From the NCBI RefSeq assembly GCF_030345095.1, contig NZ_CP128360.1, positions 1,612,001 through 1,676,000 on the forward strand: a DNA stretch of 64,000 nt. Direction: 5' to 3'. This document shows positions 18,813-45,269 of this stretch, one piece after another. The stretch comes from Solwaraspora sp. WMMA2056. GTDB lineage: Bacteria; Actinomycetota; Actinomycetes; Mycobacteriales; Micromonosporaceae. A model generated the notes under the pieces. The model was not told the DNA's origin, searched no databases, and was given only the letters and a program-made list of their open reading frames with translations. Position numbers and translations under genes: made by a program. Position 1 is the first letter of the stretch; the number at the start of each line of letters is the position of its first letter.

Positions 18813-19200
18813 GCTGGGATCCTAGTGGATCAAACCAGGAGAGCGTACGCCCCGGGCCGTCGCCTGTGCGGTGCTGCGTCCGATCCTCGACAGACTCAAG
18901 ATCCGTAGTGGACTGTGTGTCGACCAGGATGTTCGGAACATTCTCGGGGTCGACTTGCCAGCTGGATGACGTACCGTCGTGATTTCGACTGTGAATCTCG
19001 TACGTTCGTCTCGGTCGGCCTCGGCCGACGCGCCGGTCGCGGCGGGTGACACGTGGCCTTACCTGCGTGAAAGGGTCAAACCGGCTGCCATTCGAGTGGG
19101 CAACGACCCTCGTCGACACTCGAACATATGTATGAGAATCGTTTTCTTGTCGGTGTTCGTACCTATCATGGTGCCACTCGTGATCGAGGAGGCAATCGTC
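18813..19200. other. Divergent intergenic region between m5C methyltransferase and sigma factor
   Basis: This 388-base stretch separates divergent starts, so it must hold promoters for both. The reading frame of the sigma factor is open through most of it, but no ribosome-binding site supports an earlier start. An AT-richer patch lies around 19121-19160. I cannot name a specific promoter with confidence, and I see no RNA gene. Confidence 0.5.
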
Positions 19201-20772
19201 ATGGTGATGGCGCGGTCGGCAGCACGACGGACGAAGCATCGATCGACCAGCGTAAACAAGGCGCACGTTGAAGAGCTGCGTGCGATCCTCGACCAGCACG
19301 AAGCTGAACAAGCCCGCAATCTAGTGGGCAACTTCTTGAATCGCTACCAGATCAGCCACCACGACGTGGATGCACTTTTGAACGGGCTGGCCGGCAGCCC
19401 GGAGGAGCAGGCGGCCGGTGGAGAGCCGGACGGACCTGTTGCCGGCGTCGACCTTGATCTCGATGATGGCCCGGCAGTGACGGTCGACGTCGCCGAGATG
19501 TCGACCGACGACGACGCCTTGGATTGGATGTTCGCGGACGAGCCACCCCTGCCAGCTCCGCGATCAGCCAGCGACGTCGTCGGGCGCGCGCTCGACGATC
19601 TCCTGGGAGACTGGGAGAGGAAGGGCGGGCAGCTGACGCGCGAAGAAGTGTCGCTCGTCGCCACGCACCGGAAGCTGACTCCGGAGCAGCGCGCCGACCT
19701 GCTGGACCAGCTCGTCGAGGCAGGCGTCCAATTGCCAGCCGTCGCAGCCGCCCGGCCGAGCCGAGTCCTACCGGAGGGCTACGAGTTCAACGGCGATGGC
19801 ATCCGGCAGTACCTGCGTCAGGTCGCCCGCTACCCGCTCATCGGCGCAGCCCGGGAAGTGGAACTCTGGGCGTCGATCCAGCAGGGTTTGGCCGCCGAGG
19901 AGCGACTGAAGTCGGCAGACTCGGCCGAGGCGGCGCCCGAGCTGATGCGGAGCTTGCAGGAGCAGATCGCTGAAGGTAAGCGCGCGCACAGCGAGCTTGT
20001 CTGCGCCAACCTGCGCCTGGTCGTCTCCATCGCCAAGACGAGACAGGACGAAGTCTGCGGAGTCGAGTTCCTGGACCGGATACAGGATGGAAACCTCGGC
20101 CTCATGCACGCCGCGAACAAGTTCGACGGTTCGAAGGGATTCAAGTTCTCCACCTATGCGACGTGGTGGATCCGGCAGGCGATCGAGCGAGGCATCGCCG
20201 ACCGAGGCAGGGCAATCAGAATTCCAGTGCATGTCCACGAGAAGATGGCAAGGGTTCGGAGGGAGAGGTTGAGGTTGGCTGCCTTGCTGGGCCGAGAGCC
20301 GGCGCTGTCGGAGATCTGCGAGCGCACCTGTTACGAGCCGGGCTTGGTGCAGGCGGCGCTTGACCTCATGCGGCCCCTGCGTAGTCTCGACGAGATGCTC
20401 GGCGAGGAAGGTGATCTGCGACTTTCTGACCTGCTCGCGCATGGAGGGGAGCGTGACTGCCTAGCCGATCCGGCCGATATAGTTTTGCATGATATTTTCC
20501 GCCGGGACGTGACCTATACTTTGCCGTCGGCGCTCCCTGATCGCGACCTGGAGGTCATCAAGCGGAGGTTTGGTTTTGATGACGGCGACGAGGAGACGCT
20601 AGAGCAAATCGGTGTCAGGCTCGGGCTATCTCGTGAACGTATTCGCCAGATCGAGAAGAAGTCAATGTCCAAGCTTCGCGCGAGCGGCGGAATCCGGGAC
20701 CTCCGTTCCTATCTGATAGATGATTCCCGAGCGGTTGCGGCTACCCCTGCTGTGGGAAGGTGGGCTTCGTGA
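19201..20772 (+). CDS. RpoD-like sigma-70 factor at the head of the defence island
   Basis: A 523-residue sigma factor. ATG at 19201 follows GAGGAGG with eight bases of spacing. The N-terminal 200 residues are variable and acidic. Region 1.2 is at DGIRQYLRQVARYPL; regions 2.1-2.4 start at about residue 262 with ELVCANLRLVVSIAK and continue through FLDRIQDGNLGLMHAANKFD and FKFSTYATWWIRQAIERGI. Region 3 follows, and region 4 is LPDRDLEVIKRRFGF with the HTH LEQIGVRLGLSRERIRQIEK. It directs RNA polymerase to promoters, presumably of this island. Its TGA overlaps the GTG of the helicase gene, so production is coupled to a DrmA-like protein, an unusual partner for a sigma factor. Confidence 0.9.
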   Translation: MVMARSAARRTKHRSTSVNKAHVEELRAILDQHEAEQARNLVGNFLNRYQISHHDVDALLNGLAGSPEEQAAGGEPDGPVAGVDLDLDDGPAVTVDVAEMSTDDDALDWMFADEPPLPAPRSASDVVGRALDDLLGDWERKGGQLTREEVSLVATHRKLTPEQRADLLDQLVEAGVQLPAVAAARPSRVLPEGYEFNGDGIRQYLRQVARYPLIGAAREVELWASIQQGLAAEERLKSADSAEAAPELMRSLQEQIAEGKRAHSELVCANLRLVVSIAKTRQDEVCGVEFLDRIQDGNLGLMHAANKFDGSKGFKFSTYATWWIRQAIERGIADRGRAIRIPVHVHEKMARVRRERLRLAALLGREPALSEICERTCYEPGLVQAALDLMRPLRSLDEMLGEEGDLRLSDLLAHGGERDCLADPADIVLHDIFRRDVTYTLPSALPDRDLEVIKRRFGFDDGDEETLEQIGVRLGLSRERIRQIEKKSMSKLRASGGIRDLRSYLIDDSRAVAATPAVGRWAS

Positions 20773-23700
20773 CCAGCTCAGGAGTTCAGAGCTTGGAGCA
20801 GGCGTGCGAGGCGTTCGTTGCCTGGCTCGACCGCCGGGTGATCGCGGCAGGCCGTGGGGACGGCCTGGACCGCTTGGAGGTCGCTCCGTCGGGCACCTTC
20901 TGGCTGGGGCGGCTGTCCTGCGAGGACGAGGTCAAGGACGGACTCAACGACGACCGTTCGGAGCGGCTGGATCCGTGTGCGATCGGGATCAGACTGCGTC
21001 CGGCAGGCGGGCCGCCATGGTCGATGTCCGTCACGGTGCGGGCACGCGCCTGGGGCAAGGACGAGCCGAAGGACCCGGATCCGAGGGGCCGCTGGTGGCG
21101 CAGCGACCTGGTCGAAGAAGTCGTCTCGGTGTTGGTCGACGGCGCCGGTACAGAGGCCGGATCGAAACAGCTCGAGGATGCCTTCGCCGCCGTCGGCGTG
21201 CCCGGTCTGTCGGCGAAGGTCAAGGTCGACGTCGAGGACTGGCACAAGCAGACCGAGTTGGTCGTGCAGCTGGTCAACACCAGCCCGATCAAGGCGCCCG
21301 GCTTGGCCGACTCTCATCTGTTCGAGACACAGATCGAAGTGCGCGGCTTGTCGACCGTGCCGTTTCAGTTGGAGGCGCTGCCCGACAGCTTCCGCTACGA
21401 CCGCCAGGTGCCTGCCTACGGCGTGAACGTCGGCGTCGAGGTGTTGGCGCCCGACGTCTTCCGTACGACCGACACGGTCACGGTGCAGACGTTTCGGCCG
21501 ACGTACTGGAACGGCGCCGACGCGCCGCCGGACCTGTCGTTCGCGACGCTGGCGGCCGATCCGATCCCGCAGCTGACCGCGCTCGTGGAGGCGCTGGCGG
21601 CTTACGACGAGGCGCACTGGTCGCCGTCGGTGCTCGACGCCCGGCAGGCGGCCGAAGGCTGGACCCCGGCGATGCGGGCGGAGGCGAATCGCTCGGCCGG
21701 GGAGGTCTTCGGTGAGCTGGATCGTCTCCGCACCGGGCTCGAGCTGCTGCGCGCCCGACCGGAGCTGTGCCGTGCCTTCCAACTGATGAACAAGGCGATC
21801 GCCCGCAGCGCTCGTGGATACGACACGTGGCGGCCATTCCAGATCGGCTTCCTGCTGGCTACGGTTCGGTTCCTGGTCGAGCGGGACGAGGAAGCCGAGT
21901 ACGTCGACACCGTCTGGTTCGCCACGGGTGGCGGCAAGACCGAGACGTACCTCGGTCTGCTGCTCACGGCGGCCTTCTTCGACCGGCTGACGGGCAAGAC
22001 GATGGGTGTGACAGCCTGGTCGCGGTTCCCGCTGCGGTTGCTCAGCCTGCAGCAGACCCAGCGGTTCGCTGACGCGCTCGCCGGCGCCGAAATGGTCCGC
22101 CAGGAAGAGAACGTGGGAGGTACGCCGTTCAGCCTGGGCTTCCTCGTCGGTCAAGCGGGCACACCGAACAAGGTGGTCCCGAAGGCGGAGAAGGACGAGA
22201 TCACTCCGGACAGCCCTGGTATGCCGGACAAGTACCAGGTCTTGCTGCACTGCCCGTTCTGTCGGGCGGAGAAGCTGACGATGCGGTTCGACCGCAAACG
22301 GTGGATGCTAGAACACCGCTGCACCAACCCCGACTGCACCAATGGCAGTCGTCCGCTTCCGATGTACGTGGTCGACCAAGAGGTGTTCCGCTTCCTGCCA
22401 ACGGTTGTCGTGGGGACCTTGGACAAGGCTGCGTCCATCGGCATGCAGCAGGCGATGCGCGGGTTGGTGGGTCCGCCGCAGAAGGTGTGCTCGGTGCCCT
22501 GGCACGGGTTCACCTACGCCCAGCGATCCTCCTCGCCCAACGGGTGCCTGGTGCCGGACTGCCAAGGCGGGCCGGCTCTCAGGGACCTGCCGATGGACGG
22601 CGAGCGGTTCGGGCCGTCGCTGCGGCTGCAGGACGAGCTGCACCTGCTGCGTGACAGCCTTGGGGCGGTCGACTCCCATTACGAGAGCCTGCTGGATCAT
22701 CTGCAGCAGAGGTTGTGCGGCTCTCGGGCGAAGATCGTCGCCAGTAGCGCGACGTTGACCGGCTACGAGCATCAGGTCGACGTGCTCTATCGCCGGCGCG
22801 GCCGCGTGTTTCCGCAGCCCGGTCCGCGTGCTGGCGAATCGTTCTGGACGATGCCGACCGACGAGCCGCTGCGGCGTTTCGTGGCGGTCGCGCCGCGCGG
22901 CGTCACGCTGGAGCACGTCAGCGACCGGACCTTGGACACACTGCAGCGCTGCATTCGCGAACTCAAGGACGAACCGGCAAGGGTTTGCGCGGACGCCGGG
23001 ATCGACCTACAGCACGTCGAAAAGCTCGTGAGCCTGTACGGCACGGATGTCGTGTACGGCACCACTCTCTACGACGTGGAGGCCGCCGGGCGGAGCCTGG
23101 GCAGCAACAACACCGTGTCGGGCATCAACGTCGAGCAGCTCACCGGTCAGACCGACTTCGACGAGGTGCGAGCGATCCTCGATCGGCTGGATCACCCGGA
23201 GCCGAACTTCGACGACCGCATTCACGTGATCGCCGCCAGCTCGATGCTGTCGCACGGCGTCGACGTCGACCGGCTCAACACGATGGTGATGCTGGGGCTG
23301 CCGCTGACCACAGCCGAGTTCATCCAGACGACGGCCCGAGTCGGCCGCCGGCACCCCGGTTTGGTCTACGTGCTGCACAAGATCGGCCGGGAACGGGATG
23401 CCCAGACCTTCCGGCACTTCGGCCCCTACGTCCGACAGGGCGACCGTTTCGTCGACGCGATTCCGATCACGCGACGCAGCCGGCGAGTGCTGGATCTGAC
23501 GATTCCGGGTGTCGTCGGTGCGCGAACGTTGATGATCCGCGAGCCGGCGAGCAAGCAGAGGCTCAGCACACCGGCGAACCTGCGCGGTTATGCCCGTGAC
23601 TCCGGTATGTCACCCGCTGGCGAGGCCGCCGAGATCGCGGCGCTGCTCGGGTTCGACGACGTAACGGATCCGCTGCATTGTGAGCAGATCGCGCAGTGGA

Positions 23701-23837
23701 TGAGAGAGTGGTTCGCAGACCTCGACGACCCGAGCACTCGGGCAAGGTTCACCAGTGAACTAGGTCCCCGGCAACCGATGAGGAGCCTCCGCGACGTCGA
23801 GGCCAGCGCACCGATCCACGAAGACAGGCGGTCGTGA
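20769..23837 (+). CDS. drmA: DrmA-like SF2 helicase (DISARM-type)
   Basis: A 1022-residue helicase-related protein. Walker A is FATGGGKTETYLGL near residue 385; the Walker B equivalent is LQDELHLLRDSLG near 622; SASSATL-like motif III is IVASSATLTGYE. Motifs V/VI are SSMLSHGVDVDRLNTMVMLG and QTTARVGRRHPGL. Between them are zinc-type cysteines (CPFC, HRCTNPDC). The variant Walker A, the DELH box and the adjacent DUF1998 gene are what I expect of DISARM DrmA, which with DrmB binds and translocates on DNA to block phage entry. The GTG at 20769 overlaps the sigma-factor stop; an earlier GTG at 20760 is less likely. Confidence 0.78.
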   Translation: MTSSGVQSLEQACEAFVAWLDRRVIAAGRGDGLDRLEVAPSGTFWLGRLSCEDEVKDGLNDDRSERLDPCAIGIRLRPAGGPPWSMSVTVRARAWGKDEPKDPDPRGRWWRSDLVEEVVSVLVDGAGTEAGSKQLEDAFAAVGVPGLSAKVKVDVEDWHKQTELVVQLVNTSPIKAPGLADSHLFETQIEVRGLSTVPFQLEALPDSFRYDRQVPAYGVNVGVEVLAPDVFRTTDTVTVQTFRPTYWNGADAPPDLSFATLAADPIPQLTALVEALAAYDEAHWSPSVLDARQAAEGWTPAMRAEANRSAGEVFGELDRLRTGLELLRARPELCRAFQLMNKAIARSARGYDTWRPFQIGFLLATVRFLVERDEEAEYVDTVWFATGGGKTETYLGLLLTAAFFDRLTGKTMGVTAWSRFPLRLLSLQQTQRFADALAGAEMVRQEENVGGTPFSLGFLVGQAGTPNKVVPKAEKDEITPDSPGMPDKYQVLLHCPFCRAEKLTMRFDRKRWMLEHRCTNPDCTNGSRPLPMYVVDQEVFRFLPTVVVGTLDKAASIGMQQAMRGLVGPPQKVCSVPWHGFTYAQRSSSPNGCLVPDCQGGPALRDLPMDGERFGPSLRLQDELHLLRDSLGAVDSHYESLLDHLQQRLCGSRAKIVASSATLTGYEHQVDVLYRRRGRVFPQPGPRAGESFWTMPTDEPLRRFVAVAPRGVTLEHVSDRTLDTLQRCIRELKDEPARVCADAGIDLQHVEKLVSLYGTDVVYGTTLYDVEAAGRSLGSNNTVSGINVEQLTGQTDFDEVRAILDRLDHPEPNFDDRIHVIAASSMLSHGVDVDRLNTMVMLGLPLTTAEFIQTTARVGRRHPGLVYVLHKIGRERDAQTFRHFGPYVRQGDRFVDAIPITRRSRRVLDLTIPGVVGARTLMIREPASKQRLSTPANLRGYARDSGMSPAGEAAEIAALLGFDDVTDPLHCEQIAQWMREWFADLDDPSTRARFTSELGPRQPMRSLRDVEASAPIHEDRRS

Positions 23838-25585
23838 TGAAGCCTCTCGCATCTCGCAGTGGCAGCCAGATCCTGCGGACTTTCCTGCCGGAGCAGACGG
23901 TGGACTTACGTGGCGACATCTACCAGGTCACTGAATGGTCGGCGCCCGTCCCGATCGAGGTCGATACCGATCTGGTGCGCCGGCATCTGCTCGGGGAGAT
24001 CGCCGCGTGGGCGGTCAAGGACAACGACAGCGGGATGAGCGGCGAACTGCTTCGCCGGGCGCCCGTCGAAGTCGTGGAGCTGGACGACCGACGCGGCGTT
24101 ACAGTCGAACGTTATCCCAAGGTCTGGCTGTGCCGGGTCTGCAAGCGAATTGGTAAATCGCCGGACCGGCCCTGCAAGTGTCGGAAGGGCGGAAAGTGGG
24201 GTCAGCTGCACTTCGTGGGCATCCACGACTGCGGAAGGATCTACGAGCCGTGGATTCGACGCTGCAAGGAGCACGACGACGTCAAGGTCGTCATCCCGAA
24301 GAGCGCCAAAGCGGCCGACATCAGATTTATCTGCCCCACATGCGAAACCAAGACAATGCCAGGCCTTGGTTTCAACCGGACCTGCGACTGCGGTGAAGGC
24401 AACATTCGGTGGAACGTCCACAAGGCGCGCACCGTCTACACCCCGCGCGGCATGGTCCTCATCAATCCTCCAAGGCCGGAGCATCGGGAGGGCCTGAAGC
24501 TTGCCGGTGGCGCCCGCAAGGCGCTCGTCTGGGTCGTCGAAGGGCTGACCGCCGACCGCCCTGCCGACGTGTCGTCGAAGCAGACCCGGGAAGAGTTCCT
24601 GGCGAAGCTCGTAGCCGACGGTATGGATCCATCGTTTGCCGAGCAGATGACGGCGATGGCGGAGCAGGGTGGCCAGCTTGCCAAGCCGGGCGCGCATCCG
24701 ATCGACCGGCTGTCGGGGCATCGGCGTGAAACGGCCGAACGCGAAGCCGCCGACATCGCGATGGCGCTGGCCGAGAGCCGGTTGCCGACGACCAAGCTGG
24801 GCGGATCGGGGGCCGGTGGTGCCCTCGCCGCTCGCTACCGCGACAGCTACCCGGCGGCGCTGGCCCGCGCCGGCGTGGCCGGGCTGGACCTGGTCGACAA
24901 GTTCCCAGTGCTCAGTGCCATGTACGGCTACACCCGTGGCGACGACGACCCGGCGAAGTGCCGGTTGATGCCGTTCCGCCGCAGACGAGGTGGCTACCGG
25001 CTGTACGGCAATCTTGCCGAGACGGAGGCGTTCCTGATCCGGCTGGATCCGCTGCGGGTGGCGACCTGGCTCTCCGGGCGCGGCCACCGGCTTTCCGGTT
25101 GGAAAGTCGGAGACCAGGACGAGGTTGCGGCGCGGGTCGCGATCCTGGAGTCGGCGGTGGTGCCGTCGAAGCGCGACGATCCGTCCGACGGCTCGCCCGG
25201 CACCGACCTTCTCAAGCTGGTGCACACCTACGCTCACCGGTTCATTCGCCAGACAGCGGTCTTCTCCGGCATCGAACGCGATGCGCTCAGCGAGTACCTG
25301 TTGCCTGGACATCTGGCGTTCTTCGTCTACGCCGGCGCCAAGGGCGACTTCGTGCTCGGCGGCATGCAGGCGGTGTTCGAGTCCAACCTCGACGACCTGA
25401 TGCACACCTTCGTCGACGCGGAGCACCGGTGCCCGCTGGATCCGGGCTGCAGTCGAGGCAGCGGGGCGTGCAGTGCCTGCGTACATCTGGGTGAGCCGTC
25501 GTGCCGGTTCTTCAACCGGTTCCTCGATCGGGGGGTGTTGTTCGGACAGGGCGGCTACCTGCGGATCCGGCGGCCCGAGGAGTGA
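23834..25585 (+). CDS. drmB: DrmB-like DUF1998 protein (DISARM-type)
   Basis: A 583-residue protein with N-terminal zinc-type clusters (CRVCKRIG, CKCRKGG, FICPTCETK, CDCGEG). The C-terminal DUF1998 region contains HRFIRQTAVFSGIERDALSEY, GDFVLGGMQAVFE and a final four-cysteine group (CPLDPGC, GACSACVHLGEPSC) followed by NRFLDRGVLFG. DUF1998 next to a DrmA-type helicase is the hallmark of DISARM, where DrmB forms a complex with DrmA. GTG at 23834 overlaps the helicase stop as GTGA, so the genes are coupled. Its 3' end is overlapped on the opposite strand by vsr. Confidence 0.82.
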   Translation: MMKPLASRSGSQILRTFLPEQTVDLRGDIYQVTEWSAPVPIEVDTDLVRRHLLGEIAAWAVKDNDSGMSGELLRRAPVEVVELDDRRGVTVERYPKVWLCRVCKRIGKSPDRPCKCRKGGKWGQLHFVGIHDCGRIYEPWIRRCKEHDDVKVVIPKSAKAADIRFICPTCETKTMPGLGFNRTCDCGEGNIRWNVHKARTVYTPRGMVLINPPRPEHREGLKLAGGARKALVWVVEGLTADRPADVSSKQTREEFLAKLVADGMDPSFAEQMTAMAEQGGQLAKPGAHPIDRLSGHRRETAEREAADIAMALAESRLPTTKLGGSGAGGALAARYRDSYPAALARAGVAGLDLVDKFPVLSAMYGYTRGDDDPAKCRLMPFRRRRGGYRLYGNLAETEAFLIRLDPLRVATWLSGRGHRLSGWKVGDQDEVAARVAILESAVVPSKRDDPSDGSPGTDLLKLVHTYAHRFIRQTAVFSGIERDALSEYLLPGHLAFFVYAGAKGDFVLGGMQAVFESNLDDLMHTFVDAEHRCPLDPGCSRGSGACSACVHLGEPSCRFFNRFLDRGVLFGQGGYLRIRRPEE

Positions 25586-26006
25586 CGGCCAGCAGTCGCC
25601 GCCACTGCGCTTCGACCCGGTCGGCGGCGGCTGCGGTGGCCTCGTGTTCCCACACGTGCAGCACGGTCCAGCTCAGGTCGGCCAGTGCCGCGTCCTTCGC
25701 ACGGTCGCGGGCGACGTTGCGGTCCAGCTTCGCCTGCCACCAGTCCCGGTTGTTGCGCGGCAGGGTGCCGTGTTCGGGGCAGCGGTGCCAGAAGCAGCCG
25801 TCGACGAAGACCGCCAGCCGCGCTCGGGTGAAGACCACGTCGGGCCGGCCCGGCAGCCGCGCGTCGTGGATGCGGAAGCGCAGCCCCCGGCGGTGCAGTT
25901 CGCGGCGCAACAACAGCTCGGGCTTGGTGGAGGTGCGGGGTTGACGGCGGAGTCGGGCCGACGTGGCGGCATCGAGCGGTACGGGCAAGGGGGACTTTCG
26001 GCCCAT
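25512..26006 (-). CDS. vsr: Very short patch repair (Vsr) endonuclease
   Basis: A 164-residue Vsr homologue: TSARLRRQPRTSTKPELLLRR, the catalytic Asp region RLPGRPDVVFTRARLAVFVDG and the zinc-type CFWHRCPEHGTLPRNN, then WQAKLDRNVARDR. Vsr nicks at T:G mismatches made when 5-methylcytosine deaminates, so it normally accompanies an m5C methylase such as the one at 17703-18812. Here it lies alone on the minus strand between the two plus-strand defence operons. Its last 74 bases overlap the end of the DUF1998 gene in antisense; that part of the protein (after VTPRAAG) is a non-conserved tail. Confidence 0.92.
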   Translation of the reverse strand: MGRKSPLPVPLDAATSARLRRQPRTSTKPELLLRRELHRRGLRFRIHDARLPGRPDVVFTRARLAVFVDGCFWHRCPEHGTLPRNNRDWWQAKLDRNVARDRAKDAALADLSWTVLHVWEHEATAAAADRVEAQWRRLLAVTPRAAGSAGSRPVRTTPPDRGTG

Positions 26007-26127
26007 CTCTCCAACCTATCTGGGGACGTTCCGTTAGATCACAGGCAGTTAGGCTTGTGAACTGGCGACAACGCGACTTGTCGGCGAACGTCTCATTTGT
26101 AACGATTCGAAAACGGAGAAAACACCT

Positions 26128-33734: not shown

Positions 33735-36700
33735 GCGAGCTGCTCCCCACCCACCAGGCGGACCGGATCCGGCACAGCCTCGTCGACTACCTGACGACGA
33801 CGTTCGGACTCACCGACGGCGACGCCCGCGACGGCCTGGACCGCTTTTTGTCCGACCCGGACACCGGCATGTTCAAAGGCCCCTACGTGCGGCTGCGACT
33901 GCCGTACCGGCCCGCCGACGCCGGCTGGCGGGACACCCTGGAGTGGTACGAAGGCTTCCCACCGCCGTACGGCCATCAGGCCGCCGCGTTCGCCCGGCTC
34001 GCCTCGGCTGCCGGCGGGCAGCCGCGCCGGCCGCTGCCGACCCTGGTCACCACCGGCACCGGCTCCGGCAAGACCGAGGCGTTCCTGGCGCCGATCCTGG
34101 ACCACGTGCTGCGGGCTCGCCGCGACGGGGTCACCGGAATCAAGGCGTTGATCCTCTACCCGATGAACGCGCTCGCCAACGACCAAGCGGCCCGGTTGAC
34201 GAAGCTGCTGGTCGAGCAGCCCGACCTGGCCGAGGTGACCGCCGCGCTCTACACCGGGCAGGCCGGGGAGACCCGGCCGGCGGTGAGCGCCGACGGGCTG
34301 ATCACCGACCGGGGGATCATCCGGGACACCGCGCCGGACATCCTGCTGACCAACTACAAGATGCTCGACCAGCTGCTGCTGCGAGTCGAGGACCAGGAGC
34401 TGTGGCGGCAGTCGGCGACCAGCCTGCGGTACCTCGTACTCGACGAATTTCACACCTACGACGGCGCGCAAGGCACCGACGTGGCGATGCTGCTGCGCCG
34501 GCTCGGCCTGGCCCTCAAGAGCCACTGGCGCGACGACGACCCGGCCATCGACGACGCCGCGCGCAGCCGGCCGCTGGGGTTGGCGACCCCGGTGGCGACC
34601 TCGGCGACCCTCGGCGACAAGGGCGACCCGCTGGTGATGCTCGACTTCGCCCACACCGTGTTCGGGGAGCGCTTCGGCGCCGACTCGATCGTCACCGAGA
34701 CCCGGCTCGACCTCGACGAGTGGTCCGACGGCGCGGCCGAGCAGATCGCCGCCGCCGACCTTCACCCGGTCGAGGTCGGCACGCTGGACGTGGCGGCCGC
34801 GCTCGACGCCGTCGCCGATCTCGGCCACGACCCGACCGGGGAACAGCTCGCCCGCCTCGTCCTCAGCCAGCTCTACGGCGTCGAACCGGAGCGGTTCGTC
34901 GGCGCTGACCCGCAACTGCTGCTCGCGCTCTGCCAGGCGCATCCGCTGGTGCACACTCTGGCCCGCGAGGCTGCACACGCCGTCGCCCTGGACGACCTCG
35001 CCGAACGGGTCTTCGGCGTCGGCCACCCGGCCCGCGCCCAGGCGCTGCTGACGCACGTGATCGCCATGCTCGGGCACGTCCGCGCGGTCGCCGGACGCGA
35101 CGCGCTCGCCGTCGACGTGCATCTGTGGATCCGGGAGCTGACCCGCATCGACCGGGCCGCCGCGACCGCCGCCCGGTTCCGGTGGAGCGACGACGGCCCG
35201 CCGATCCCCGGCGGCGACGCCGAAGACACCAGGCCGTCCTTCCCGGCCATCTTCTGCCGGCACTGCGGCAGATCCGGCTGGGGGATCGGCCTCGCCCCGG
35301 TCGGCAACAGCCTGACCCCTGACGACGACCACATCCGTCGCGACCACGCCGTCAAGGAGGGCCGGTTCCGGCCACTGCTGTACGCGCCAGCCGAAGCCGC
35401 CGCCAGCATCGACAGCGGCGAGCAGATCGACGGACTGGTGTGGTTTTCGATCCGCAGCCGGGAACTGCTCACCAGCGTCGCCGACGACGACCGGGAGCTG
35501 CGCGACGGCTGGATCCTGCCGGTGCTGACCAACCTCGGCACCGACGCCGACCAGCAGAGCCGCAAGGACACCTGCCCGTCGTGCGGGCAGGAAGACGGCA
35601 TCCGGTTCCTCGGCAGCGCGGTCGCCACGCTGCTGTCGGTGTCGCTGTCGACGCTGTTCGGCTCGCCGACCCTCGACGCTCGAGAGAAGAAGGCGCTGGT
35701 CTTCACCGACTCGGTGCAGGACGCCGCGCACCGGGCCGGGTTCGTCCAGGCCCGGTCGCACACGTTGACGCTGCGGTCCGTGTTGCGGCACGCCGTCGCC
35801 GACGGGGAGCTGACCCTCGACGCACTCGTCGAGGAAGTGATCCGGCAGGCCGGCGACGACCCGTTCGCGCGCTACCGGGTCCTCGCCCCGGACTGCGCCG
35901 ACCGGGAGTCCTTCGTGGAGTTCTGGAAGGCCGGGAAGCTGCGTGCGGTGCCCGCGAAGGTGCAGGCGCGGGTGCGCAAACGGCTCGCGCTCGACGCCGC
36001 GTTGGAGTTCGGGCTGAACTCCCGCACCGGCCGGACCCTGGAGCTCACCGGCACGGTCGCCGTCGGAGTCAACGCCGGTGAACCGGCCCGGATGGCCGGG
36101 ACGGCCCGTGCCGTGCTCGACGGCACGTCCTGGCAGGCCGCGCTCGGCTCGACCGGGCCCGACGACGCGACCCTGGTGCGGTGGGTCCGTGGCCTGCTGG
36201 ACCGGATGCGCGCGCAAGGCGCCATCGACCACCCGTGGTTCGACCGCTACCGGGCCGAAGACGGCCGCGACTGGTCGATCTGGGGTGGGCGGCCGCGCAG
36301 CGACGGCATGCCGGCGTTCCCCCGGGACCGGCCCCGGCCCGCGTACCCGAAGGTCGGCGGCGGCGCCGGACCGGCCAACAGCGGACTGGACCCGGTGACC
36401 ACGCCACAATCCTGGTACGCCCGGTGGACGTCCCGCGTGCTCGACGTCTCCCCGCTCGACGGCGGCCGGCTCGCCCGGCAGCTGCTCGACCGGCTCGCCC
36501 GCGACGGGATCCTCAGCACGACGACCAGCGAATCCGGTGCCACCGTCTTCGCGATCCCCCCGTCTGCGGTCGTCGTCGCGCCCGTCGACGAAGCCGACCT
36601 GGCCGCCGGCCGGCACCTGCTGGTCTGCGACACCTGCCGGGCCATCACCCCGGGCACCGTCGACGTCGTCACCCAGCTCACCGGCGCACCCTGCCTGCAC

Positions 36701-39700
36701 GTGCGCTGCCGTGGGCACCTGCAGCCCGACCGGCTGAAAGACAACTTCTACCGACGGCTGTACGGATCCCCGGACATGCGCCGCGTCGTCTCCCGGGAAC
36801 ACACCAGTCTCCTCGACGACGAGACCCGCCTGGCGTACGAAGACGGATTCCGCGACGCCGCGACCAGTCCGCAGGCCCCGAACGTCCTCGTCGCCACCCC
36901 CACCCTGGAGATGGGTATCGACATCGGCGACCTGTCGGCGGTGCTCCTCGCGTCGCTGCCCCGGACCGTCGCCTCCTACCTGCAGCGGGTCGGCCGCGCC
37001 GGCCGGCTCACCGGCAACGCGCTCAACCTGGCCTTCGTCACCGGGCGCGGCGAGCACCTGCCGAAACTCGGCGACCCGCTGTCGGTCATCGACGGAGAGG
37101 TGCGGCCGCCGGCGACCTACCTGGCGGCGGAGGAGATCCTGCGCCGGCAGTACACGGCGTACCTGGCCGACGGCTTCGCCCGCGACGTCGGCCGCCGCCA
37201 CCCGAGGTCCGCCGTCGGGGCGATCGCCTCGACCAATCCGGGCACCTTCCTCGGCGACCTGGTGTCGCACGCCGAGACCAGCGCCGCCGAGCAGTTGCCC
37301 CGATTCGTCGCCACCTTCGACCTGCCCGAAGACGTCGTCGAGCGGCTGCGTGACTGGCTGCGGCCGGTCAGCGGGCCACGGACCAGCGGCTTCGCCGCGC
37401 ACGTGCAGGACGCCAGCCGCCGCTGGCGGGACAACGTCGAGACGCTGGAACGACGGCGGACGAAGATCGCCGAACTGCTGCCCGAGCTCGAAGCGAAGAC
37501 CGCGTCGCCGGCCGCCACCGACGACGACAAGCAGGCGCTGCGGTCGGCGCGATCCGCTCTCAGACTGACCGGCGGTCAGCTGGCCGACCTGCGCGGCGGC
37601 TACTGGATCAGCGTCCTCGAAGAATACGGACTGCTGCCCAACTACACGCTGCTCGACGACACCGTCACCCTCGACGTCGGGCTGTCCTGGATGGATCCCG
37701 ACACCCTCACGTACACCTACGGCCGGGCGCACTTCGCGCGCGGCTCCGCGCAAGCGCTGCGCGAGTTCGCCCCCGGCGCCACCTTCTACGCCCGCGGCTG
37801 GGAAATCGACATCGACGCCGTCGACCTCGGCATGGACGGCTCGGCGATCCGCAGATGGGCGTTCTGCCCCGCCTGCGGATACGCCGTCGACGTCGCGCTG
37901 ACCGGTCGCGAAGTGCCGGTCCCGGCCTGCCCGCGCTGCGGCAGCACCGGCATCGGCGACACCGGGCAACGTCTCGACGTGGTCGAGCTGACCCGGGTCT
38001 CCGCCGAAGTACGCCGCGACGAAGCCGCGATCTCCGACCGCAAGGACGACCGAACCCGTACCGGATTTCTGATCGTCGCCGCCGCCGACGTCGACCCCGC
38101 CAACGTCGCCCGCCGCTGGTTCGTCGAAGGCACCGGACTCGGCTGCACCTACCTGCGTGTCGTCGACCTACGCTGGATCAACCTGGGGCTACGCGGACAC
38201 GGCACGACCCGGACCATCGCCGGCGAAGACCGGCAGGGCAACCTGTTTCGCGTCTGCTCCGGCTGCGGCAAGAAAGACACCGAAACCGGCCGCAACCGGC
38301 CGCACGAGCACCGGCCGTGGTGCCCGCATCGGATGTCACCCACCGAGAAGGCCAGCACCATCGCGCTGTCCCGGACCCTGCGTACCCAAGGGTTGCTGCT
38401 CCGGCTGCCGCACGCGGTCAGCATCGGCGACGACTTCGCCGTGCCCAGCCTCTCCGCCGCGCTCCTGCTCGGGCTCCGGGAACAGATGGGCGGCCACCCC
38501 GACCACATCCGGGTCGAACACGTCGTCGACCCCACCCTGTCCGACGGCACCGACAACCACGACGCCATCCTGCTGCACGACGCGGTGCCCGCCGGCACCG
38601 GCTACCTCGCCGAGACCGCCACCCCCGAGCGGCTACGCGAACTGCTCGTCCTCGCCTGGGAACGGGTCCGTGACTGCGAATGCCGCCACGAGGACCGACT
38701 CGCCTGCCACCGGTGCCTCCTGCCGTTCATCGACCCCAACATCGTGCGGCGAGTGTCCCGGGCATCGGCCGAGCGGCACCTGCGTGCCCTGCTCGGGCTC
38801 ACACCTGACGCCGACACCGCAGAAGGGACGACCTGGACCGTGACCGAGGTGGCACCGCACGAGGAGCCCGAGTCGCATCTGGAACGCGCCTTCCACCGGG
38901 TCTTCGTCGGCCGACTGCGGCGAGCCGGCGCCGCCGTCTCCGAAGCGCCCGGGCCGACCGGCAACGTCGTACGGTTCACCCTGCCCGGCATGCACCGGCA
39001 GTGGACCCTCACCCCGCAGGCCAACGTTCTCGATTCCCGGCCCGACTTCCTGCTGGAAACCAACGACATGAACGTGCCCGCGGTCGCGATCTTCACCGAC
39101 GGGCGGGCGTACCACGCCACCGCTGCCGCGAACCGGCTCGCCGACGACGCCGCGAAACGGGCCAACCTACGCGACGCCGGATTCGTGGTGCTCGCAGTCA
39201 CCGTCGCCGACGTCGAACCCGGCGACCAGGGCCCCGCCCCGCCCTGGTGGTACAACGCCGCGATGGCCGGCAGCCTGATGACCATCCCGCAGCTGCAGGC
39301 GCCACCCGAGGTGTACCGCAGCCTCGGCCGAGGACCCGTCGACTGGCTCGTCGACTGGGTGTCGAACCCCCAACCGGCTGCGGTACGGGCCGTTGCCCGT
39401 GCCGTACCGATGTTCCTGTCGGCCGGGGCGCACACGATGTCCGTCGCCGACCCGTTCACCCCAGCAGAGCTGGCCCGCGCAGCCCTGCTCGACGAGCACC
39501 TGCCGACCGGCGAGCGAAAGCTCTACCTGAACCGTCGAGGAGCCCTCGCGGTCGTCGTCGAGATCCTCGCCGAAACGGTCGTCGAAGTCGCCGTGGTCCT
39601 CGACGACCGCGACGAAGCACTCGACGACGCCCACGCCGAAGCGTGGCGAGCATGGCTGCGGCTGTCCAACGCGCTGGCGCTGCGGGACTGGCCGACCGTC

Positions 39701-40072
39701 GTGACCACCACGAGCCTCGTCCACACCGCTGCCGGCGACCCCGCCGACGAGCAGACCGGATCCGGTCTCGGCCGCCCCGTCGGCGCCTGGGCCGACGTCT
39801 ACGACGCCGCCGCACCCGGCGAGGAACGGCGACTCGTCGCCGCGCTCGCCGCACACGACGGAATCGCCCCGCCGGTGGTCGGTGCGGAAGGCCCCGACGG
39901 CATTCCGCTCGACCTTTCCTGGCCCACTCTGCGAGTGGCCGTCGCCTTCGCCCACATGTCGGCACAGGATCGCGCCGACCTCGCCGAAGCAGGCTGGCGA
40001 CTCGTCGAGCCCACTCCCGAACTCGTCGCCGAAACCGTCACCCACGTCCTCGACCCCGCCGGAGAACGCTGA
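33731..40072 (+). CDS. Giant DEAD/DEAH helicase with zinc (MZB/DUF1998-like) and nuclease-like C-terminal region
   Basis: A 2113-residue protein. Helicase lobe 1: motif I TTGTGSGKTEAFLAP near residue 108, LILYPMNALANDQA, motif II DEFHTYDGAQGTD. Lobe 2: ATPTLEMGIDIGDLSAVLL near 1056, and QRVGRAGRLTGNALNLA. Several zinc-type groups follow (CRHCGRSG, CPSCGQED, FCPACGY, CPRCGS, CSGCGKK, and CECRHEDRLACHRCLLPF near 1650, an MZB/DUF1998-like end). Residues 1765-1840 then show RPDFLLE and VAIFTDGRAYH, a PD-(D/E)xK-like pattern. Size and helicase-plus-DUF1998 layout recall DruE of Druantia. Starts with GTG inside the methylase stop. Confidence 0.75.
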   Translation: MSELLPTHQADRIRHSLVDYLTTTFGLTDGDARDGLDRFLSDPDTGMFKGPYVRLRLPYRPADAGWRDTLEWYEGFPPPYGHQAAAFARLASAAGGQPRRPLPTLVTTGTGSGKTEAFLAPILDHVLRARRDGVTGIKALILYPMNALANDQAARLTKLLVEQPDLAEVTAALYTGQAGETRPAVSADGLITDRGIIRDTAPDILLTNYKMLDQLLLRVEDQELWRQSATSLRYLVLDEFHTYDGAQGTDVAMLLRRLGLALKSHWRDDDPAIDDAARSRPLGLATPVATSATLGDKGDPLVMLDFAHTVFGERFGADSIVTETRLDLDEWSDGAAEQIAAADLHPVEVGTLDVAAALDAVADLGHDPTGEQLARLVLSQLYGVEPERFVGADPQLLLALCQAHPLVHTLAREAAHAVALDDLAERVFGVGHPARAQALLTHVIAMLGHVRAVAGRDALAVDVHLWIRELTRIDRAAATAARFRWSDDGPPIPGGDAEDTRPSFPAIFCRHCGRSGWGIGLAPVGNSLTPDDDHIRRDHAVKEGRFRPLLYAPAEAAASIDSGEQIDGLVWFSIRSRELLTSVADDDRELRDGWILPVLTNLGTDADQQSRKDTCPSCGQEDGIRFLGSAVATLLSVSLSTLFGSPTLDAREKKALVFTDSVQDAAHRAGFVQARSHTLTLRSVLRHAVADGELTLDALVEEVIRQAGDDPFARYRVLAPDCADRESFVEFWKAGKLRAVPAKVQARVRKRLALDAALEFGLNSRTGRTLELTGTVAVGVNAGEPARMAGTARAVLDGTSWQAALGSTGPDDATLVRWVRGLLDRMRAQGAIDHPWFDRYRAEDGRDWSIWGGRPRSDGMPAFPRDRPRPAYPKVGGGAGPANSGLDPVTTPQSWYARWTSRVLDVSPLDGGRLARQLLDRLARDGILSTTTSESGATVFAIPPSAVVVAPVDEADLAAGRHLLVCDTCRAITPGTVDVVTQLTGAPCLHVRCRGHLQPDRLKDNFYRRLYGSPDMRRVVSREHTSLLDDETRLAYEDGFRDAATSPQAPNVLVATPTLEMGIDIGDLSAVLLASLPRTVASYLQRVGRAGRLTGNALNLAFVTGRGEHLPKLGDPLSVIDGEVRPPATYLAAEEILRRQYTAYLADGFARDVGRRHPRSAVGAIASTNPGTFLGDLVSHAETSAAEQLPRFVATFDLPEDVVERLRDWLRPVSGPRTSGFAAHVQDASRRWRDNVETLERRRTKIAELLPELEAKTASPAATDDDKQALRSARSALRLTGGQLADLRGGYWISVLEEYGLLPNYTLLDDTVTLDVGLSWMDPDTLTYTYGRAHFARGSAQALREFAPGATFYARGWEIDIDAVDLGMDGSAIRRWAFCPACGYAVDVALTGREVPVPACPRCGSTGIGDTGQRLDVVELTRVSAEVRRDEAAISDRKDDRTRTGFLIVAAADVDPANVARRWFVEGTGLGCTYLRVVDLRWINLGLRGHGTTRTIAGEDRQGNLFRVCSGCGKKDTETGRNRPHEHRPWCPHRMSPTEKASTIALSRTLRTQGLLLRLPHAVSIGDDFAVPSLSAALLLGLREQMGGHPDHIRVEHVVDPTLSDGTDNHDAILLHDAVPAGTGYLAETATPERLRELLVLAWERVRDCECRHEDRLACHRCLLPFIDPNIVRRVSRASAERHLRALLGLTPDADTAEGTTWTVTEVAPHEEPESHLERAFHRVFVGRLRRAGAAVSEAPGPTGNVVRFTLPGMHRQWTLTPQANVLDSRPDFLLETNDMNVPAVAIFTDGRAYHATAAANRLADDAAKRANLRDAGFVVLAVTVADVEPGDQGPAPPWWYNAAMAGSLMTIPQLQAPPEVYRSLGRGPVDWLVDWVSNPQPAAVRAVARAVPMFLSAGAHTMSVADPFTPAELARAALLDEHLPTGERKLYLNRRGALAVVVEILAETVVEVAVVLDDRDEALDDAHAEAWRAWLRLSNALALRDWPTVVTTTSLVHTAAGDPADEQTGSGLGRPVGAWADVYDAAAPGEERRLVAALAAHDGIAPPVVGAEGPDGIPLDLSWPTLRVAVAFAHMSAQDRADLAEAGWRLVEPTPELVAETVTHVLDPAGER

Positions 40073-42213
40073 TGCCGACGATCATCATGGGCAAGCCCGC
40101 CAACAAAATCGACGGCTCCGTGCGCGGCAAGGCCATGGCCTTCCTGCAGAAGCTGTGCACCGACGACGCCACGCCTGGCCTGCACGTGGAACCGATCCAG
40201 AAGTCCGCCGACCCGCGAGTACGCACCGGCCGGGTCGACGAATTCTGGCGGGCCGTCATGTTCCGCCTCGACGGAGACGGCGAAACGCACTACGTCATCC
40301 ACGGGATCTGGCCGCACGACGACGCGATCGCCGTGGCCCAGCGCGTACGACTCAAGGTCAACCCGATCAACGGCCTGCCGCAGATCGAGGAGATCGACCC
40401 GACGCCGCCCCCGCCCCCACCGCCGCCGGTGCGGCCCGTCGCCGAACCACTGCTGCTGCGGCTCGGTCACCATCAGGCGGACCTGATCGACGTTCTCGGT
40501 CTGCCCGCCGACGTCGTCGCCGACGCGATGGCCGTCTCCGACGAGGACGCCATGCTCGAACTGGCGCAACGGCACGACGGCTGGGTCGGCACCATCCTCG
40601 TCGACCTCGCCGCCGGCGACACCGTCGATGCAATCGTCGCCCGGATGCAACTGGAGAAGACCGACCCTGCCGCCGACGCCGACGCCGACGTGCTGCAGTC
40701 GCTCAAGCGCCCGGCAGCCGCCCTCCAGTACGCCTTCATCGGCGACCAGGAAGAGCTGCGCCGCGTCATCGAAGACGGCGACTTCGGCGCCTGGCGGATC
40801 TTCCTGCACCCTGAGCAGCGCCGGTACGTCGAACGCCGCTACAACGGCCCGTACCGGGTCTCCGGTGGCGCCGGCACCGGCAAGACCGTCGTCCTGGTCC
40901 ACCGCGCCCGCGCGCTGGCCCGCCGTGATCCGCAGGCGCGGATCGTGCTGACCACCTTCACCACCAACCTGGCCGAAGCCCTCGGCGACAACCTCACCCG
41001 ACTCGACCCCCAGGTGCCGCAGACGAAGGCGCTCGGCCAGCCCGGCGTGTACGTGGCCGGAGTGGACGCGTTGGCCGCCGCCGTGCTGCGCGGTCCCGGC
41101 GGCGGGCTCGCCGCCGCCATGCGTGACGTGCTCGGCGAAGAACGGGCCACCCCGGTCGCCAGGACCGCAGGCACGCGTTGGCGGGAAACCATCGAATCGA
41201 CCGGGACGACGCTGCCACCCGAGCTGGCCAACGAGACCTTCCTCGCCACCGAGTACGCCCACGTCGTACTGCCAAACAAGATCCACGACGAGGCCGGCTA
41301 CCTGCGGGTCCGCCGCCCCGGCCGAGGCGTGGCACTCGACCGCGCCAAGCGCGCGGCGGTGTGGGAGTTGATCGCTGCCTACCGCGCGCAGAGCCGGATC
41401 GACGGCAGCCTCGACTTCGCTGAAGCCGCAGCGGTCGCCGCCGCGCACCTGACCAGCCAGCCCGACCGACCCGCCGACCACGTGCTGGTCGACGAGGGCC
41501 AGGACCTGTCGCCGACCCATTGGCAGCTGCTGCGTGCCCTCGTCGTCGCCGGACCCGACGACATGTTCATCGCCGAAGACTCCCACCAGCGCATCTACGG
41601 CGCCCGCACCGTCCTGTCCCGGTACGGCGTCGCCGTTGTCGGCCGATCCCACCGGCTGACCCTCAACTACCGCACCACCGCACAGAATCTGAAGTACGCG
41701 TTGGCGATCCTCGACGGCGCCGAGTTCGTCGACCTCGACGGCGACCGTGAAGCCACCGGCTACCGCTCCGCCCGAACCGGACCGACGCCGGTGGTGGAAT
41801 CGGTCGACTCCATCACCGACGAACTGGCCGCGATCGTCGGCACCGTGCGCCGCTGGCTCGACGAGGGTGCCGCCCCCGACACGATCGCAGTCCTCGTCCA
41901 GGACCGATTCCACCGGGACCGCGTCGTGACCGCCCTCACCGATGAGGGCATCGACGCCCGCGCCGTCGACCGTGACCGGCCGCCGGCAGGCCGAGTGCCG
42001 GTGCTGACCATGCACCGAGCCAAGGGCACCGAATTCTCCAAGGTCGTACTCGCGCTCGGCAAACCGTCGCCGGCCGAACTCGCCAGGATGGAATCGCTGG
42101 ACCCCGCAGACCGGGCCGACGCGGAACTGCGAGCCCGATCGCTGCGCTATGTCGCGGCGACCCGGGCACGTGACGAGCTGATGGTGGTCCGACGACCGGG
42201 GTCAGGTCAGTAG
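40072..42213 (+). CDS. UvrD-like SF1 helicase with RelE-like N-terminal domain
   Basis: A 713-residue protein. Residues 1-110 (VRTGRVDEFWRAVMFRL, HYVIHGIWPHDDAIAVAQ) resemble the small ParE/RelE fold. A proline run (about eight Pro) links it to a helical region, and then a UvrD/Rep-type SF1 helicase begins. The helicase motifs are motif I VSGGAGTGKTVVLVHRA near residue 265, TTFTTNLAEAL, motif II LVDEGQDLSPTHWQLL, RLTLNYRTT, LTMHRAKGTEF and RYVAATRARDEL. It is the last gene of the coupled operon (TGATG overlap with the giant helicase). It may displace or unwind DNA for the system; whether the N-terminal domain is a toxin-like RNase or a scaffold is unknown. Confidence 0.8.
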   Translation: MPTIIMGKPANKIDGSVRGKAMAFLQKLCTDDATPGLHVEPIQKSADPRVRTGRVDEFWRAVMFRLDGDGETHYVIHGIWPHDDAIAVAQRVRLKVNPINGLPQIEEIDPTPPPPPPPPVRPVAEPLLLRLGHHQADLIDVLGLPADVVADAMAVSDEDAMLELAQRHDGWVGTILVDLAAGDTVDAIVARMQLEKTDPAADADADVLQSLKRPAAALQYAFIGDQEELRRVIEDGDFGAWRIFLHPEQRRYVERRYNGPYRVSGGAGTGKTVVLVHRARALARRDPQARIVLTTFTTNLAEALGDNLTRLDPQVPQTKALGQPGVYVAGVDALAAAVLRGPGGGLAAAMRDVLGEERATPVARTAGTRWRETIESTGTTLPPELANETFLATEYAHVVLPNKIHDEAGYLRVRRPGRGVALDRAKRAAVWELIAAYRAQSRIDGSLDFAEAAAVAAAHLTSQPDRPADHVLVDEGQDLSPTHWQLLRALVVAGPDDMFIAEDSHQRIYGARTVLSRYGVAVVGRSHRLTLNYRTTAQNLKYALAILDGAEFVDLDGDREATGYRSARTGPTPVVESVDSITDELAAIVGTVRRWLDEGAAPDTIAVLVQDRFHRDRVVTALTDEGIDARAVDRDRPPAGRVPVLTMHRAKGTEFSKVVLALGKPSPAELARMESLDPADRADAELRARSLRYVAATRARDELMVVRRPGSGQ

Positions 42214-42439: not shown

Positions 42440-42733
42440 ATGTCCGAGCAACGTCGTCGATACAGTCCGCAGTTCAAGGCCGAGGCTGTGCAGATGGTCG
42501 TCGAGACCGGTAGACCGATCGCCGCGGTGGCCCGTGATCTGGAGGTCCACGAAGCCACCCTGGGCAACTGGGTCAACACCTGGCGCCGTGAACACGCCAC
42601 GCCCGTACCGCCGCACACCGACCGGACCGAGGACACCCGTGTGAAGGAGATGGAAGACGAGATCCGCCGCCTGCGGATGGAGAACGAGTTCCTGAAAAAA
42701 GCCGCGGCCTTCTTCGCCCGGACGCACCCGTAG
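42440..42733 (+). CDS. IS3-family transposase OrfA
   Basis: A 97-residue OrfA with an N-terminal helix-turn-helix (RRRYSPQFKAEAVQMVVETG, AAVARDLEVHEATLGNWV) that binds the terminal repeats, and a C-terminal leucine-zipper-like helix (MEDEIRRLRMENEFLKKAA). Near the end, codons ctg-aaa-aaa-gcc contain the run AAAAAAG at 42695-42701, a typical -1 programmed frameshift site that would produce the OrfAB transposase. A single ATG at 42440 lies within the left part of the element. Confidence 0.95.
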   Translation: MSEQRRRYSPQFKAEAVQMVVETGRPIAAVARDLEVHEATLGNWVNTWRREHATPVPPHTDRTEDTRVKEMEDEIRRLRMENEFLKKAAAFFARTHP

Positions 42734-42747
42734 CCCTGCGGTGCGCG

Positions 42748-45079: not shown

Positions 45080-45269
45080 CGGAACGTCGTACGTCACTGG
45101 CGTGCGAGCATCAAACGGACTCCCAGTGGCCGAGGCAGCAGGCGGGTTGTCTTCTGCCGATCGAGCGATCTACCTGCCCCGCTAAAAGTTTGCTGGTCAA
45201 CCACCACCAGCGCGGAGGCTCCATGGGACCGGTCCGTACCGCTGTTGTGGTTGACTGGGTGGTACGTAC

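Follow-up and report, generated by a model that had tools for sequence, protein, structure and literature searches.

The window analysed here, a 64,000-nt stretch of the genome of Solwaraspora sp. WMMA2056 (1.612-1.676 Mb of a 7.01-Mb single contig), carries between positions 19201 and 42213 seven open plus-strand genes that, with two minus-strand genes, form a predicted nine-gene composite of two antiphage modules. The first is DISARM-like and comprises a sigma factor, DrmA, DrmB, a DrmMII-type C5-cytosine methylase and Vsr; the second is ARMADA Type II (ArmA-D). We are highly confident of the identity of both modules. The best explanation overall, to which we give a probability of about 0.58, is that the locus is an SOS-responsive composite restriction-type antiphage cassette with its own RpoD-like sigma factor. 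This reading rests on sequence: gene content and order, the overlap of the sigma and drmA genes, the co-inheritance of DrmA and ArmA, the catalytic residues of ArmA-D and an SOS-box-like palindrome.

The initial annotation had described seven plus-strand genes in two coupled operons, and open reading frame (ORF) analysis bore this out, since every junction within both operons of the window is a GTGA or TGATG overlap. Of the 20 corresponding junctions in four other genomes, 14 overlap (sigma-drmA and armC-armD in 4/4, armA-armB and armB-armC in 3/4), and drmA and drmB, which overlap in 0/4, are separated there by gaps of ~12 bases. Between the two operons, 542 bases separate the drmB-like gene, which ends at 25585, from the gene at 26128-29007; an empty gap was ruled out, because a minus-strand vsr gene occupies this space. 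The other minus-strand gene, encoding the C5-cytosine methylase, is divergent from the sigma gene (Table 1). Neither minus-strand gene had figured in the initial annotation.

ARMADA Type II was described in a September 2025 preprint (Bell et al. 2025, PMC12458937). Profile searches with the second operon returned a DrmD/RapA-type helicase (1e-89), a PglX/type IIG-like methylase, a DruE-like helicase with MZB/DUF1998 and a UvrD helicase. As judged by comparison with the same ARMADA II operon from E. coli ATCC 8739, genes four to seven are ARMADA Type II. The four window proteins match that operon in the same order with 30-34% identity, and window 26128-42213 contains the strict ARMADA II succession of BrxHII-like helicase, PglX-like methylase, YprA helicase and GajB-like UvrD helicase. 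All eight residues whose mutation is published to abolish or reduce defence in E. coli are conserved in the window (ArmA K and D, ArmB G and N, ArmC K and D, ArmD K and D); residue numbers were taken from PMC12458937 (strain NCTC 12900), and ATCC 8739 carries identical residues at identical numbers. The N-terminus of window ArmD, RelE-like by homology only, aligns with E. coli ArmD and gave no match to Pfam RelE even at E 5. At the ArmC C-terminus, the place of a Vsr-type nuclease in ARMADA II, VAIFTDGRAYH resembles E. coli VAIFLDGFAFH by eye only, with no Pfam Vsr match there. The matches of window proteins to DrmD and DruE models arise because these families are kin, ArmA and ArmB being homologues of DISARM DrmD and DrmMI according to PADLOC profiles. 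The direct comparison thus ruled out a class 1 DISARM identity of the second operon. The earlier view of the locus as class 1 DISARM with extra parts had to be abandoned: its DrmD-like helicase is better assigned to ArmA, its adenine methylase is ArmB, its giant helicase ArmC and its UvrD/RelE-like protein ArmD.

The DISARM identity stood for genes two and three. Window DrmA matches the solved DrmA structure 7s9v as well as PADLOC DrmA, and reached 352 bits with the NCBIfam DrmA model; DrmB matches its PADLOC profile and ends in a DUF1998-type Cys cluster, as seen by eye in the alignment. The best PADLOC model for the methylase is DrmMII (1.7e-97), DruM (2.2e-67) and general type II models being weaker, and in other cassettes, too, a relative with 70-76% identity diverges from sigma. 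The presence of such a C5 methylase speaks for class 2 (DrmMII) over class 1 DISARM. In line with the absence of drmC (PLD nuclease) noted in the initial annotation, no PLD/DrmC match was found among the window proteins scanned, a set that leaves aside a few small edge ORFs; nor was DrmE among the PADLOC matches shown for these proteins. In the PADLOC rules type I consists of DrmA, B, C, D and MI and type II of A, B, C, E and MII (PMC9252829), so that, with both DrmC and DrmE unfound among the scanned proteins, the locus fits neither type. Each of the two minus-strand genes, methylase (start 18812) and vsr (start 26006), shows a -10-like box a few bases ahead of its ATG, an arrangement known from leaderless transcripts. 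The same genome also carries a second, distant drmA-drmB pair at 820185-822017, and no sigma, C5 methylase or DrmC relative was matched within the surrounding 20 kb.

Conservation of the gene neighbourhood supports treating the seven genes as one set, which had previously been an inference: all seven occur together in identical order in three genomes of the same family (G095, G330, G323) and in one of another order (G164). The G323 locus has no vsr and a gap of ~690 bases between armA and armB. We then scanned 84,980 species genomes with a DrmA alignment and two peptide patterns, a pattern-based search rather than a census, which yielded 19 loci with window-type DrmA (L061 and L062 being the same contigs as G330 and G164). 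The sigma gene adjoins drmA on its upstream side in 18 of the 19 and drmB is present in all, which establishes the sigma factor, an added member in the initial annotation, as a real partner of DrmAB. Because armA lies directly downstream in 13/19 loci, DrmAB and ARMADA appear coupled in this clade; of these 13, 10 have vsr in the space from drmB to armA and 10 show the divergent methylase, one contig (L060) ending before the methylase position. In four Salinispora loci sigma-drmA-drmB is kept, but armA is absent from the ~8 kb downstream. At the locus of Salinispora oceanensis (L075), methylase, drmA, drmB, armA, armB and the start of armC were found with no sigma or vsr detected; as these genes are kept there and the armA upstream box is intact, sigma is not strictly needed at that locus.

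The phylogenies agree with this coupling. ArmA of 10 cassettes forms a single clade (100/100) whose sub-groups match the DrmA tree, which argues that the parts, once joined, were passed on together. The DrmA tree held 11 of the 19 scan loci, two duplicate rows being left out; the ArmA tree was built without L043 and L124 and without L045 and L059, whose frames are short, and further scan cassettes were not put in. Window DrmA is sister to DrmA of Haloactinopolyspora, a member of another order, and the best matches to sigma in the six congeners searched were at host-sigma level; we conclude that the cassette travels as one unit. Similarity to two congeners (G298, G297) stops near window 14078 and resumes near 45234-45246 with other cargo in between, and in a third (G301), for which the fetched stretch did not include the left flank, it is back at 42182 already. 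Window ~14078-45234 is therefore a variable site among congeners. By eye, the site adjoins apparent nuoB/nuoD genes, and the congener cargo seems to include a C5 methylase in one case (G297) and, in another (G301), a Vsr with a GHKL-type ATPase.

Both modules were also sought apart and in other combinations. An ArmA match at 1e-100 was present in 42 of the 394 genomes of the class. In addition to the window, G095 and G164, we fetched 20 of these 42 loci, of which 13 had armA-armB-armC in order, armD lying outside the fetched stretch in all 13; contigs ending early (L116, L123, L124) and loci whose order was unseen in the fetched stretch (L109, L113, L125, L126) were not counted as ARMADA. Among the resulting 16 ordered loci, three have sigma-DrmAB upstream, two have DrmAB without sigma and 11 have neither within ~9 kb. 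The two sigma-less cases (G104, G290) carry a distant DrmA-DrmB directly upstream of armA, and in two further genomes (G118, G281) DrmA lies on the same contig as ARMADA, ~13-17 kb from armA; the DrmA proteins of all four form a clade far from window DrmA. The simplest reading is that DrmAB and ARMADA came together on at least two occasions, an argument for a functional link but no proof of one. In G104 and G290 (L108, L112) a UvrD/GajB-like helicase precedes DrmA-DrmB and armA-B-C, and in G104 a PbeA-like helicase stands before that.

Sigma was found with DrmAB outside Salinispora as well, in Roseomonas and Kineococcus without ARMADA. Plasmid pOT10-1 of Roseomonas sp. (Alphaproteobacteria, Pseudomonadota) is annotated, in this order, with vsr (reverse), sigma-70, drmA, drmB and a cytosine methylase; its DrmA is 54% identical to that of the window, a further cytosine methylase 52% identical to the window enzyme lies 5.7 kb upstream of sigma, and no ARMADA was present within the 27 kb seen. 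A Burkholderia plasmid carries within ~11 kb a relative of drmA that is split in two in the annotation, a DUF1998 gene, a C5 methylase, a NERD-domain helicase and sigma-70, with an IS3 transposase among them. In Kineococcus and in a Pseudonocardiaceae metagenome-assembled genome, sigma-drmA-drmB is accompanied by a C5 methylase and vsr. That Salinispora and the Roseomonas plasmid have sigma-DrmA-DrmB but no ARMADA nearby marks sigma as a partner of DrmAB. In the phylum sample, the DrmA relatives that come next (G557, G795, G627) had no sigma match in the fetched stretch, nor had G240, and the G555 contig, ending ~0.9 kb upstream of drmA, was uninformative on sigma. A search of phages with the Roseomonas query brought up no DrmA relative at 1e-20, and plasmids gave no match to the window sigma at 1e-50, the plasmid cases having been found through DrmA. 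The locus of a 51% DrmA relative (G113, L046 9984-19663) holds a C5 methylase-Vsr fusion, a 774-aa protein without Pfam or PADLOC match at 0.001, drmA, drmB and DrmC, with no sigma detected; this is possibly a class-2-like DISARM with the 774-aa protein as a new part in the place of DrmE.

These distributions bear on the strongest rival, namely that two independent systems, DISARM-like and ARMADA II, merely travel together in a defence hotspot. The initial annotation had taken independent occurrence of the two operons in most genomes as an argument against one system, and the result cuts both ways: 11 of the 16 armA-B-C loci lack DrmAB in ~9 kb upstream, but armA follows in 13 of the 19 DrmA loci. 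Sigma-DrmAB without ARMADA in the four Salinispora loci, Kineococcus and Roseomonas, the separate upstream region of armA and the variability of the site among congeners also speak for two systems. However, order and orientation are fixed across families, the DrmA and ArmA trees agree, a second DrmAB-ARMADA pairing occurs in a distant DrmA clade, and ArmA and ArmB are themselves homologues of DISARM proteins. We consider two mere fellow travellers unlikely, though a serious contender to a single composite cassette.

The sigma factor carries regions 1.2, 2, 3 and 4 (Pfam) and a region-1.1-like segment recognised by eye against the host HrdB. It matches sigma factors of the PDB, RpoD/HrdB included (HrdB 2.4e-110; Foldseek 1.2e-18); its AlphaFold model (mean predicted local distance difference test score 70.7, predicted template modelling score 0.35) agrees with the sigma fold and says nothing firm on the N-terminal extension. 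The G323 sigma (L051, before position 10288 on its minus strand), whose start is uncertain, is without the N-terminal extension of the other sigmas. Sigma is the fastest-diverging protein of the cassette, with 45-54% identity versus 70-84% for the other six in four genomes, and the end branches of eight cassette sigmas measure 0.22-0.68 versus 0.02-0.09 for three host HrdB proteins, all from one family. Region 2, which binds core RNA polymerase and the -10 element, has a mean pairwise identity of 78% among 15 aligned sigmas; the other domains reach 44-61% and the linker 30%. In the -10-reading helix, an acidic residue takes the place of the Thr that has a role there in sigma factors: it is E/D in 17/18 aligned cassette sigmas and T/S in 7/7 host sigmas. 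As a hallmark of defence sigmas the acidic residue was dropped, because the Roseomonas sigma has Thr and the Burkholderia sigma Arg, which limits the residue to a clade. In a tree of 23 sigmas one branch (92/87) parts 12 DISARM-linked from 8 host sigmas, so that a single origin of the former is possible, a weak signal because several branches are long. MzaA, the sigma factor of the MZA defence system (mzaABCDE; PMC9523054), is the NCBIfam model that fits the Roseomonas DISARM-linked sigma best (264 bits against a cut-off of 800); for the window sigma it ranks seventh among these models.

Upstream of the sigma gene lies the palindrome TCGAACATATGTATGA, which agrees with 9 of the 10 consensus positions of the LexA box of Streptomyces venezuelae, tCGAAC-N4-GNNCGa (PMC9380542). 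GAAC-N4-GTTC was present in 10 of 17 sigma upstream regions versus 0.034 expected from dinucleotide shuffles, ~75 bases before the sigma start in six loci and ~100 in four Salinispora loci, and in 0/16 armA and 0/12 methylase upstream regions. The count left aside G323, L073, L076 and L077, where the sigma start is uncertain or fused, and L075, which has no sigma. Related boxes precede recA (CGAACAGGTGTACGA) and lexA (AGAACATGAGTACGA) of the same genome. SOS control of sigma-drmA-drmB is thus rather probable from the pattern of these boxes. The sigma upstream regions also share TTGTCR-N11-TAcgmT at a fixed spacing in most loci, a spacing unlike that of a normal -35/-10 pair. Beyond this element only TAnnnT boxes were seen, and a sigma-specific promoter motif is not claimed. 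In four Salinispora loci (L066-L068, L070) a short leader frame, MTTAIIA or MTTAIIT, stands behind GGGGAGG and ends in TAAATG overlapping the sigma start, possibly a leader peptide translationally coupled to sigma.

Several observations weigh against an SOS-responsive single cassette with a dedicated sigma factor. The exact SOS box is missing in 7 of the 17 loci, the window included, and these loci are related and hence not independent. In the genome, CGAACN4GTNYGA occurs 41 times versus 8 for a reversed control pattern, and no recognised SOS gene lay near the five perfect CGAACN4GTTCG sites inspected. Alignments of the sigma, armA and methylase upstream regions revealed no distinct motif common to the cassette promoters, only ordinary TAnnnT boxes, and in L075, where sigma was not detected, the armA upstream box is intact. 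Both modules also occur alone, and DrmA, DrmB and the DrmD-like protein stay under the NCBIfam curated cut-offs (950 for DrmA).

In the mechanism that we propose, ArmB and the C5 methylase would mark host DNA as self, and Vsr would repair T:G mismatches arising from deaminated 5-methylcytosine, following the dcm-vsr logic in which Vsr mends such mismatches. DrmAB, known to be activated by unmethylated DNA with 5' single-stranded ends (PMC9142583), would load onto unmethylated DNA with single-stranded 5' ends. ARMADA, which stops phage without growth arrest of the cell (PMC12458937), would block phage replication without killing the cell. Infection would yield single-stranded DNA and active RecA, LexA would be cleaved and sigma-drmA-drmB induced, and the sigma factor would keep RNA polymerase transcribing the cassette when a phage disturbs the main sigma factor. 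That sigma serves the cassette as a transcription factor is a tentative view, which we place a little under even odds.

The sigma factor may also act otherwise than, or in addition to, driving transcription, as a subunit that guides helicase-nucleases to targets on invading DNA, be they promoters, open complexes or RNA polymerase. At the Micromonospora lupini locus (L077 3462-10004), a single open frame of 2180 codons contains first an AAA_11/12 helicase with an MTES_1575 nuclease and then the DISARM-linked sigma, the helicase-nuclease occupying the place of the C5 methylase in other cassettes; in Kineococcus siccus (L076 3482-8014) a related helicase-nuclease and the open sigma frame overlap at the start of the latter, and on the Burkholderia plasmid sigma adjoins the NERD-domain helicase. 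We keep the M. lupini frame as no more than a hint: it could be a genuine fusion, but the linker is weaker in coding signal and GGGGGA precedes an in-frame ATG, so that it could equally be a pair of genes sharing a frame. As a search of 57 sequences found the helicase-nuclease in only two, and sigma region 2 is well conserved, we regard a targeting role as improbable. Still less probable is that sigma serves as a decoy or guard, sensing phage proteins that act as anti-sigma factors or take over RNA polymerase, and so sets off the system. The fast divergence and long end branches of sigma would suit such a sensor, as would the region-1.1-like segment, region 1.1 being one through which some phage inhibitors act; however, the divergence may merely reflect adaptation to different hosts, and most loci have no sensor or effector domain attached.

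Returning to a sigma factor that transcribes its own cassette, we put forward, with somewhat less than even confidence, a third, sigma-bearing class of DISARM in Actinomycetota and Pseudomonadota. This 'sigma-DISARM' would consist of an RpoD-like sigma, DrmA, DrmB, a C5 methylase and Vsr, without DrmC or DrmE; a dedicated defence sigma lineage, perhaps kin of MzaA, would be integral to it and in actinobacteria LexA-controlled, coupling DNA-damage sensing and transcription to restriction, and capture of ARMADA II in actinobacteria would have made one nine-gene system.

The cassette of the window is bordered after armD by an IS3-type transposase, and an HNH_2 endonuclease-like protein at its edge is a possible accessory gene; a 59% relative of the latter lies directly after armD in G330, and the HNH proteins of the window and of Roseomonas show no clear kinship (E 0.008).

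Table 1. Coordinates in the window of the cassette genes, upstream elements and bordering genes.
Feature	Position	Strand	Evidence
HNH_2 endonuclease-like protein, possible accessory gene at cassette edge	16705-17700	+	PF13391 1.9e-09; PADLOC HNH 2e-26
C5-cytosine DNA methyltransferase, DrmMII-like, divergent from sigma	17703-18812	-	PF00145 9.7e-48; PADLOC DrmMII 1.7e-97
LexA/SOS-box-like palindrome TCGAACATATGTATGA	19120-19135		9/10 informative positions of Streptomyces venezuelae consensus; footprint in relatives
Promoter-proximal element TTGTCG-N11-TATCAT	19147-19169	+	Alignment of 17 upstream regions
RpoD-like sigma-70 factor, 523 aa	19201-20772	+	Pfam r1.2/r2/r3/r4; PDB; Foldseek
DrmA-like SF2 helicase, 1022 aa; start overlaps sigma stop	20769-23837	+	PADLOC DrmA 2.7e-102; PDB 7s9v 3.7e-60
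DrmB-like protein, 583 aa, C-terminal DUF1998-type Cys cluster	23834-25585	+	PADLOC DrmB 3.5e-32; alignment by eye
Vsr-family mismatch/nicking endonuclease, 164 aa, between drmB and armA	25512-26006	-	PF03852 2.5e-21; PADLOC Vsr 1.1e-19
ArmA: BrxHII/RapA/DrmD-type SNF2 helicase	26128-29007	+	E. coli ATCC 8739 ArmA 9.6e-140
ArmB: PglX-like adenine methyltransferase, NPPW motif	29004-33734	+	E. coli ArmB E=0
ArmC: YprA/DruE-type giant helicase, 2113 aa, MZB/DUF1998	33731-40072	+	E. coli ArmC E=0; MZB 1.6e-10
ArmD: GajB-like UvrD helicase, N-terminal RelE-like segment, 713 aa	40072-42213	+	E. coli ArmD 6.7e-87
IS3-type transposase, two ORFs, bordering cassette after armD	42440-43608	+	PF01527, PF00665

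Sigma factors are rare as parts of defence systems, and one beside DrmAB suggests that some of these systems bring their own transcription machinery. In actinobacteria its gene shares an overlap with that of the DISARM helicase, and on proteobacterial plasmids it is found next to DrmAB or not far off. A sigma factor of its own could keep the defence expressed under phage takeover of RNA polymerase, or find invading DNA through RNA polymerase, and the SOS-box footprint predicts induction by DNA damage. That DrmAB and ARMADA are paired in two DrmA clades far from each other raises the question of how DISARM and ARMADA are related, and whether ArmA and ArmB are shared between them.

Finally, we compared the cassette with its nearest known systems. 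With ARMADA Type II it shares the armA-B-C-D order, the eight tested residues, the RelE-like ArmD N-terminus by alignment and the YprA-type ArmC; it differs in the 30-34% identity to the E. coli proteins and in having sigma-DrmA-DrmB, a C5 methylase and Vsr in front, a combination unmentioned in the available text of PMC12458937. DISARM type II has DrmA, DrmB and a DrmMII-type C5 methylase in common with the window, and the methylase-Vsr fusion that stands with DrmC beside the 51% DrmA relative of G113 has DruM as its best model; the window, in contrast, has a sigma factor in front, no DrmC or DrmE found, and scores under the NCBIfam cut-offs. A class 1 DISARM variant that has lost drmC is very improbable: homologues of DrmA, DrmB, DrmD and DrmMI are all present, but the match of ArmA-D to ARMADA II in order and tested residues refutes it for the second operon, no DrmC was found and a DrmMII-type methylase is present. 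What type I does share with the window is the DrmAB core and the homology of ArmA and ArmB to DrmD and DrmMI, whose places are taken by ARMADA genes. Likeness to Druantia lies in the matches of ArmC to DruE models (1.5e-79) and of the C5 methylase to DruM models, but ARMADA explains ArmC better and DrmMII the methylase, and no further Druantia gene was among the matches shown. A pairing of DISARM with a sigma factor was not found in the main texts of the open-access papers searched, and the two occurrences of 'sigma' in PMC12458937 both name a chemical supplier; the pairing looks new. As for MZA, only the sigma domain of the window protein matches MzaA, and no MzaB-E were among the matches shown for the window proteins. 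MzaA is nevertheless the known precedent for a defence sigma: the two systems have in common an RpoD-like sigma in a defence operon, and MzaA is the best model for the sigma factor of the Roseomonas plasmid.

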